Part shown: positions 24,065 through 26,450 of the stretch, one piece after another | Numbering within the stretch: position 1 is the stretch's first letter | How the letters are laid out: each line of letters opens with the position of its first letter | Assembly: GCA_031262885.1 (NCBI GenBank) | Contig: JAISGV010000003.1 | Span: forward strand, 124,001-188,000 | Direction of reading: 5' to 3' | DNA length: 64,000 nt | Source: Endomicrobium sp. | Lineage (GTDB): Bacteria > Elusimicrobiota > Endomicrobiia > Endomicrobiales > Endomicrobiaceae | Position numbers and translations under genes: made by a program | Notes under the pieces: generated by a model | What the model was told of the DNA's origin: nothing | The model's database searches: none | Seen by the model: the letters and a program-made list of their open reading frames with translations, nothing else

Positions 24065-24673
24065 ATGAAAAATATAAAATATAATATAAAGCGTAGAAAT
24101 AATAATTCAACTATTTTATACTTAATAATTAAATGGATATTTAAGGTAATATTTAAATTATTTTATAGAATTAGTATAAAAGGAGTTAATAATCTACCTA
24201 AAAAAGGTGGAGCTATAATTGCTTCAAATCATTTAAGTGTTTTAGATCCTCCTTTAATAGGAGTAGCTGTAAAACGTATTATATTTTTTATGGCAAAAAA
24301 AGAGTTATTTGATATCTCTTTTTTAAGATTTATTTTCCATAAAACTAATGTTTTTCCGGTAAATAGAAACAACATGTTTAATATTAATACAATTAAATAT
24401 GCTATAAATATACTCATTAATGGGAATATTTTATTAATGTTTCCTGAAGGAACTAGAGGAAAGACAAAAAAGATAAAACATGGAATAGGAATGATAGCTT
24501 GTAAAGCTAATGTTCCTATAATTCCAGTAAAAATAAGAAACACAGACCAACCTTTGAAGTTTAAAAAGGTGAAGATAAAATTTGGCTCTCCTATCTATCC
24601 TCCTATTTATTATAATAAAACCGATTATGGAATACTAACAGATAAAGTATTTAAAATTATAACTAAAATGTAA
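24065..24673 (+). CDS. plsC: 1-acyl-sn-glycerol-3-phosphate acyltransferase
   Basis: IIASNHLSVLDPPLIG (HxxxxD), FPEGTRGKTKKIKHGIG. Confidence 0.92.
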   Translation: MKNIKYNIKRRNNNSTILYLIIKWIFKVIFKLFYRISIKGVNNLPKKGGAIIASNHLSVLDPPLIGVAVKRIIFFMAKKELFDISFLRFIFHKTNVFPVNRNNMFNINTIKYAINILINGNILLMFPEGTRGKTKKIKHGIGMIACKANVPIIPVKIRNTDQPLKFKKVKIKFGSPIYPPIYYNKTDYGILTDKVFKIITKM

Positions 24674-24680
24674 TTTATAA

Positions 24681-24984
24681 TGGAGGTGGCGGGAATCGAA
24701 CCCGCGTCCGAAAAAAAAATCGATAAAACAATTTTTTACAGGTTTAGCCTATAACAACAAAAACAATATCTATAAAATTAGACATTAAATAGACATTTTC
24801 TACTATTACTGATTTATTTGTATAGCTTTATATTTTTGGTTCTTTTTTTATGCAGCCATTGCTAAATTATTACTATTATACTTTTCGTTTGCGTTTATTT
24901 TTTAGTCGATTTTTCCGGAGCCATCGACTAACTCCGACCTGTTGTTTTATCTAAATTAATTCCGTCGAAACCTATTTCACCCCC
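24681..24984 (-). ncRNA. ssrA: Transfer-messenger RNA (tmRNA), tag ANEKYNSNNLAMAA*
   Basis: Minus-strand 5' GGGGGTGAAATAGGTTTCGACGG and 3' GGACGCGGGTTCGATTCCCGCCACCTCCA; the acceptor arms pair; resume ORF gca aac gaa aag tat aat agt aat aat tta gca atg gct gca taa. Confidence 0.95.
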
Positions 24985-25427
24985 GAATAAATATATGATT
25001 TATTTATTTCTCTTTTTTTTTTAAAAAAGTTTTTTATAATACTAGAACATTTTATTTTTAAATCATGATTTTTATTTTCTATAATTTCTACATTATTATA
25101 TTTTTCTTTATAATGTTTATTAATTATACTTCCAATGACTATTCTTTTTATTCTAGCATTAATTAAAGCTCCTATACACATGAGACATGGTTCAATTGTA
25201 ACGTACAAATAACAATTATTTAGTCTGTAATTATTAATTTTTTTTGTAGCTTTTTTTAAAGCTATTATTTCTGCATGAGCTGTAGGATCTATTAAATTAA
25301 TACATTGATTAAACCCTTTAGAAATGATTTTATTGTTTTTAACTATAATAGCTCCAACTGGAACTTCATTTATATTTAATGCTTTCTTAGCTTCAACAAA
25401 AGCTTGATATAAAAAAAATGTATCCAT
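24972..25427 (-). CDS. tadA: tRNA-specific adenosine deaminase
   Basis: VPVGAIIVKNNKI, DPTAHAEIIAL, EPCLMCIGALINARI deaminase zinc motifs. Confidence 0.93.
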   Translation of the reverse strand: MDTFFLYQAFVEAKKALNINEVPVGAIIVKNNKIISKGFNQCINLIDPTAHAEIIALKKATKKINNYRLNNCYLYVTIEPCLMCIGALINARIKRIVIGSIINKHYKEKYNNVEIIENKNHDLKIKCSSIIKNFFKKKREINKSYIYSGVK

Positions 25428-25574
25428 TTTATAATGAGATTTATTTTAAATATTATTGTTATTATGATAGTACTTATTATATTTAGTAGTCAAGTTTACT
25501 AACATTAATTATGTTATAATAAAAAAATATGAATATATAATTGCTGTAAATATTTGATAGTAGGAGATGAAATA

Positions 25575-26450
25575 ATGAATTTCCAAAATATTATAATGAA
25601 TTTGCAAAAATTTTGGTCTAACAAAGGTTGTCTTATATGGCATTCATATGATTTGGAAAAGGGAGCAGGGACATTTAATCCTGCAACTTTTTTATATTCT
25701 TTGAATAAAACATCTTGGAATGTTGCTTATGTTGAATCTTCCAGAAGGCCTAGTGATGGTAGATATGGTAAAAATCCTAATAGATTACAACACTATTACC
25801 AATTTCAAGTCGTTATGAAACCTGTGCCAAATGATATACAAGCTGTATATTTTAAAAGTTTAAAAGTTTTGGGAATTGATTGTGAAGAACATGATATAAA
25901 ATTTATAGAGGATAATTGGGAGTCTCCAACACTTGGAGCTTGTGGTTTAGGCTGGGAAGTATGGCTTGATGGTATTGAAATAACTCAATTTACGTACTTT
26001 CAACAAATTGGAGGTGTTGAGATATATCCTATATTAATTGAAATAACTTATGGGCTTGAAAGATTAGCCATGAATATTCAAAAGAAGAATAATATTTACG
26101 ATATATTATGGGATAACAATAATACTTATGGATATATTCATCTTGAAAATGAAAAACAATGGTCTTCTTATAATTTTCAGGAATCTAATATAATTCTATT
26201 AAAAAAATCTTTTATTGCTTATGAAAATGAAGCAATTTTTTTAATAAAAAAAAAGTTATTAATTCCTGCATATGACGCTGTTATTAAATGTTCACATTTA
26301 TTTAATTTATTGGAGGCTAGATCTGCTATTGCTGTTTCTGAAAGACAAGATTATATATTAAGATTATATTCAATCTCAAAAGCTATTGTAAAAGAATATA
26401 TGAAAAAATCAAATGTAAAAAATTATGGAGAATTTAATAAAAAATGTTAA
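25575..26450 (+). CDS. glyQ: Glycyl-tRNA synthetase alpha subunit
   Basis: MNFQNIIMNLQKFWSNKGC, DGRYGKNPNRLQHYYQFQVVMKP, GWEVWLDGIEITQFTYFQQ; start moved to Met at 25575 behind an aggag RBS. Confidence 0.96.
   Translation: MNFQNIIMNLQKFWSNKGCLIWHSYDLEKGAGTFNPATFLYSLNKTSWNVAYVESSRRPSDGRYGKNPNRLQHYYQFQVVMKPVPNDIQAVYFKSLKVLGIDCEEHDIKFIEDNWESPTLGACGLGWEVWLDGIEITQFTYFQQIGGVEIYPILIEITYGLERLAMNIQKKNNIYDILWDNNNTYGYIHLENEKQWSSYNFQESNIILLKKSFIAYENEAIFLIKKKLLIPAYDAVIKCSHLFNLLEARSAIAVSERQDYILRLYSISKAIVKEYMKKSNVKNYGEFNKKC

Follow-up and report, generated by a model that had tools for sequence, protein, structure and literature searches.

Probably incidental overlap of the tadA stop codon with the tmRNA gene in an Endomicrobium genome

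In Endomicrobium sp. (assembly GCA_031262885.1, contig JAISGV010000003.1) the gene for the tRNA adenosine(34) deaminase TadA ends inside ssrA, the gene for tmRNA, and this raises the question of whether the arrangement lets tmRNA maturation control TadA or is an accident of genome structure. The original prediction, made from a 64,000-nucleotide stretch of that contig (hereafter the window), raised the possibility of control. Here we consider the two genes, their counterparts in related genomes, and the explanations that the overlap admits.

Both genes lie on the minus strand, tadA (151 aa) at 24972..25427 and ssrA (304 nt, tag ANEKYNSNNLAMAA, CCA 3' end not encoded) at 24681..24984, as located by ARAGORN. 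They share 13 nt, GGGGGTGAAATAG (24972..24984), made up of the tmRNA acceptor strand GGGGGUG plus six linker bases, and the tadA stop codon TAG (24972-24974) forms nucleotides 11-13 of the tmRNA. The 3' end of tadA reads AAA TCA TAT ATT TAT TCG GGG GTG AAA TAG (protein ...YIYSGVK*). The open reading frame, ARAGORN and Rfam RF00023 all agree on the position, sequence and frame of the overlap, which bears out the original prediction. Its claim that tmRNA sequence dictates the last TadA codons is likewise supported: G149, V150 and K151 lie wholly inside the tmRNA. They are the only residues encoded entirely by it and are situated past the end of the protein domain. Our searches of the open-access literature found no prior report of a coding sequence whose stop codon lies within a tmRNA gene.

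Judged by its matches, tadA is a real gene. The protein is recognized by Pfam PF14437 (E 1.6e-32) and by the NCBIfam TadA model PRK10860 (E 1e-39, 136 bits, slightly below the 150-bit cut-off), carries both the HAE and PCxxC zinc motifs, and is matched by solved TadA structures across residues 2-143. The deaminase domain stops at about residue 143-144, and the tails beyond it vary among relatives. TadA is probably needed for decoding CGN codons, as tRNA-Arg(ACG), the TadA substrate, is the only CGN-codon tRNA among the 34 tRNAs recovered, with a few tRNA loci outside the scan. The ssrA gene encodes a one-piece tmRNA, given its tag reading frame and an end-to-end match to the family model (RF00023 at 24984..24678, model positions 1-374, 110.9 bits, E 1.7e-42, gathering score 47). 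Both genes thus look functional from their sequences.

The tmRNA is short, at 304 nt against about 350-460 nt in most relatives, and its alignment to the model is poor in the region of the pseudoknots. It is shorter still in two relatives, G018 (275 nt) and G034 (270 nt), which suggests that pseudoknots have been lost stepwise in the most reduced genomes.

The tadA-ssrA pair stands alone on its strand, between a divergent glyQ-like gene (25554..26450, plus strand, named by inspection of its sequence, start codon uncertain) and a plsC-like acyltransferase gene (24065..24673, plus strand) that converges on ssrA, its stop 7 nt past the tmRNA 3' end. No terminator was found in or beyond the 7-nt gap between plsC and the tmRNA (24673-24681), so tmRNA transcripts may read antisense into plsC.

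Overlaps with RNA genes are ordinary in this very compact genome (designated G000). Among the 35 of its tRNA and tmRNA genes that were examined as a control set, three contain the end of a codirectional open reading frame of 80 aa or longer, and in two of these the frame is a real gene: tadA at the tmRNA, and rdgB (XTP/dITP diphosphatase; TIGR00042, 168 bits), outside the window, whose stop lies 16 nt inside tRNA-Pro(UGG) (L093:1561-1576) in the same geometry. The third, an 82-aa frame running into tRNA-Ser GGA, is a mechanical case and probably not a gene. Also outside the window, the 3' end of yidC crosses 30 nt of an antisense tRNA-Ser(UGA) (L005:1504-1533), giving the protein a tail that reads ...WRERDSNPR. 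The tadA/tmRNA overlap is therefore real yet unexceptional in its own genome.

To compare relatives, tmRNA loci were oriented and the TadA frame was traced to its first stop; tmRNA coordinates were taken from Infernal, as an ARAGORN-based survey missed many members of the genus. Directly upstream of ssrA and on the same strand, tadA is found in 71 genomes of the class to which the window belongs. The same pair is present at eight or nine of 30 loci of a sister class, about a quarter, and at none of seven loci of another class; these comparison loci all belong to other classes of the same phylum. Taken across the sampled genomes, the tadA-ssrA neighbourhood is old and conserved. The stretch examined holds no tadA in five tmRNA-bearing family members (G060, G077, G081, G082 and G088), only 328 nt upstream of the tmRNA being available in G082, and on the G002 contig no sequence precedes the tmRNA.

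One further genome, G021 (L048), was excluded from the 71. In it a truncated tadA frame is fused to the interior of a tmRNA-like sequence that matches the model weakly (-126, negative distances denoting overlap), and it ends in a tag-like GIAMPMAAA*; with a contig end close by, this is possibly a misassembly or a deletion. Five incomplete genomes (G003, G005, G022, G061 and G066) have no tmRNA above the cut-off and no good tadA match, with weak deaminase hits at most, a pattern consistent with joint absence of tadA and ssrA. In three order-level relatives, G036, G037 and G042, the tmRNA directly adjoins GCGACATA, which has a GC-rich sequence or hairpin in front of it; the whole looks like a dispersed repeat element.

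Unlike the neighbourhood, the overlap itself is conserved in neither position nor frame. The tadA stop lies inside the tmRNA in only 16 of the 71 class genomes, by 8 nt in seven of them, by 90 nt in two, and by 12, 13, 37, 57, 58, 72 and 108 nt in the others; in the remaining 55 it lies 1-533 nt ahead of the tmRNA. Overlaps are found in 11 of 36 genomes of the genus, which is probably Endomicrobiellum, a group of reduced endosymbionts (PMC11257099), and in 5 of 35 other class members, a difference that is not significant (p 0.16), and among 35 tmRNA loci of other classes none is entered by a codirectional frame of at least 120 aa. On a TadA tree the overlap state switches at least 10 to 11 times. 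Two pairs of sister species illustrate how this happens: G009 (-8) and G035 (-90), and G024 (-90) and G027 (+1), are each separated by one-base indels that lie only a few bases from the tmRNA start, on its upstream side. The overlap lengths divide among the three frames as 7:3:6 (p 0.44, in a test that is rough since the genomes are related), an even split, as expected if frames enter the tmRNA at random.

Where such a frame stops is set by the tmRNA. In the window species two of the three frames reach a stop no more than 13 nt into the tmRNA, the conserved GGGGGUGA giving UGA in one and the linker AAAUAGG giving UAG in the second. In tmRNA of the G027 kind, the first stops stand at 8, 37 and 90 nt in the three frames, and all three distances occur as actual overlap lengths in relatives. 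The start of the tmRNA acts as a passive stop trap for incoming tadA frames.

We consider the likely explanation to be an old tadA-ssrA neighbourhood, probably expressed as one transcript, in which the spacer erodes neutrally and the overlap is incidental. The two genes would be read, at least in part, from a transcript that begins ahead of tadA. Maturation of tmRNA 5' ends is carried out by RNase P (PMC3985003), and this enzyme would free the tmRNA by cutting between 24985 and 24984; the conserved neighbourhood makes such a precursor plausible. The short, unconserved spacer changes by small indels, and wherever tadA loses its own stop the ribosome runs on to the next one within the tmRNA gene. 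In the window, the RNase P cut would leave tadA codons 1-147 plus two bases and no stop, and this non-stop mRNA is plausibly a tolerated by-product, cleared by trans-translation. The repeated appearance and loss of the overlap among close relatives is what points to drift in a shrinking genome. Against a neutral reading stands the fact that the three most reduced genomes, G000, G018 and G034, which cluster together on the TadA tree (support 88/94), all overlap; this could hint at retention, though their overlaps differ in length (13, 58 and 12 nt, respectively) and in frame.

A candidate promoter for tadA, and possibly for both genes, TTGACT-18-TATCAT (25464..25493, minus strand), was recognized by consensus match, and similar boxes occupy similar places in G034 (TTGACA-18-TATGCT) and G018 (TTGACA-17-TATAAA). 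The leader at 24986-25008 is predicted to fold into an 8-bp hairpin of A-U pairs only, ending one base before G1 of the tmRNA, which may be chance in AT-rich sequence.

The main competing view is that ssrA has a promoter of its own within the tadA coding sequence, in which case most tmRNA would not come from tadA transcripts and the overlap would be without consequence for tadA mRNA. We hold this to be possible, if on balance doubtful. It would fit with tmRNA being usually far more abundant than tadA message. A weak promoter-like sequence, TTAATA-17-TATAAT (25095..25123, minus strand), is found within tadA, some 110 nt upstream of the tmRNA, and transcription of ssrA in Pseudomonas aeruginosa starts 60 nt ahead of its RNase P site (PMC5870498); together these keep an internal ssrA promoter in consideration. 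Promoter-like sites are, however, about as numerous as in shuffled sequence (12 found against 9.1 expected), so that this possible promoter is indistinguishable from chance. Within 60 nt ahead of the tmRNA, promoter scores do not exceed those of shuffled sequence: z is -0.1 in this genome, and the mean z across 72 genomes is 0.09. This is consistent with the statement in the original prediction that no good -35/-10 pair lies just upstream; a TATATT hexamer 5 nt before G1 has no -35 partner. An equivalent scan upstream of tadA is equally silent over the 72 genomes (0.07), which makes the silence at ssrA weak evidence. Synonymous conservation is slightly raised in the last 75 nt before the tmRNA, at 0.83 against 0.79, a difference that is not significant (p 0.08) in a test of low power.

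The autoregulatory loop put forward in the original prediction holds that RNase P maturation of the tmRNA turns tadA mRNA into a non-stop message whose product is tagged and degraded, so that the TadA level follows tmRNA activity. The geometry allows it, as a cut at 24985/24984 leaves a stop-less tadA message, and the machinery seems to be at hand: the genome encodes SmpB (9.7e-45) and probably has an RNase P RNA as well (69.7 bits, E 6.8e-22, under the gathering score). There is also a precedent for such control in arfA of Escherichia coli, where the cut is made by RNase III (PMC3989581). The comparison with relatives nevertheless leaves the loop unsupported, and it shows the separation of tadA and ssrA that the original prediction gave as a refuting observation: 55 of 71 genomes lack the overlap, the stop in most of them falling a short way ahead of the tmRNA. 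Where the overlap is present it flips between sister species by single-base indels and enters in random frames. TadA is moreover not a ribosome-rescue factor, and as it is probably needed, tRNA-Arg(ACG) being the sole CGN tRNA found, its routine destruction would be costly. We therefore regard the loop as very unlikely. The same low standing is given to arfA-like control driven by RNase P with several origins, by which, in overlapping species, each transcript would yield either full-length TadA or a mature tmRNA, and tadA mRNA cut by RNase P would be a permanent target of trans-translation whose tagging would set the TadA level.

Least credible of all is that faulty assembly or base calling near the A-runs produced the overlap, or that tadA is a decaying pseudogene, for although an A-rich stretch lies immediately upstream of the tmRNA and the assembly is 76% complete in 3 contigs, the TadA core is full-length with its zinc motifs, the tmRNA matches its model from end to end, and comparable overlaps occur in independent relatives.

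The incidental overlap that we favour has partial parallels in known systems. Cotranscripts of an mRNA and a stable RNA include secG-leuU of E. coli and the 'tRNA punctuation' of animal mitochondria, and as in these, the stable RNA here lies 3' of a coding gene and its release by RNase P would also set the mRNA 3' end. In the bacterial cotranscripts of this kind known to us, unlike tadA and the tmRNA, the coding sequence is complete before the RNA begins. In mitochondria polyadenylation can supply the missing part of a stop codon, which is not applicable to tadA. The reduced genome of Blattabacterium has 139 overlapping regions averaging 11 bp (PMC2768785), and its overlaps between coding sequences and tRNAs or other coding sequences resemble this one in being short, at gene ends and unconserved in position. 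They differ in that the partner here is tmRNA, itself the handler of non-stop messages.

In E. coli, arfA mRNA is made non-stop by RNase III and its product is tagged by tmRNA (PMC3989581). As with arfA, cleavage of tadA mRNA ahead of the stop codon would produce a substrate for trans-translation, and the truncated protein would retain its functional domain. The tadA cut would instead be made by RNase P at the tmRNA, TadA has no part in ribosome rescue, and the predicted non-stop geometry of tadA is unconserved.

Taken singly, the tadA/tmRNA overlap is nothing unusual for a genome that is shrinking. Its wider interest lies in the natural series that these near relatives provide, where the end of a coding gene falls ahead of a tmRNA gene, at its edge, or as much as 108 nt within it. 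Should tadA and ssrA be cotranscribed, this series could be used to ask whether tmRNA maturation exacts a cost in the upstream protein, and it would bear on how far cells tolerate non-stop messages that arise from their own RNA processing.
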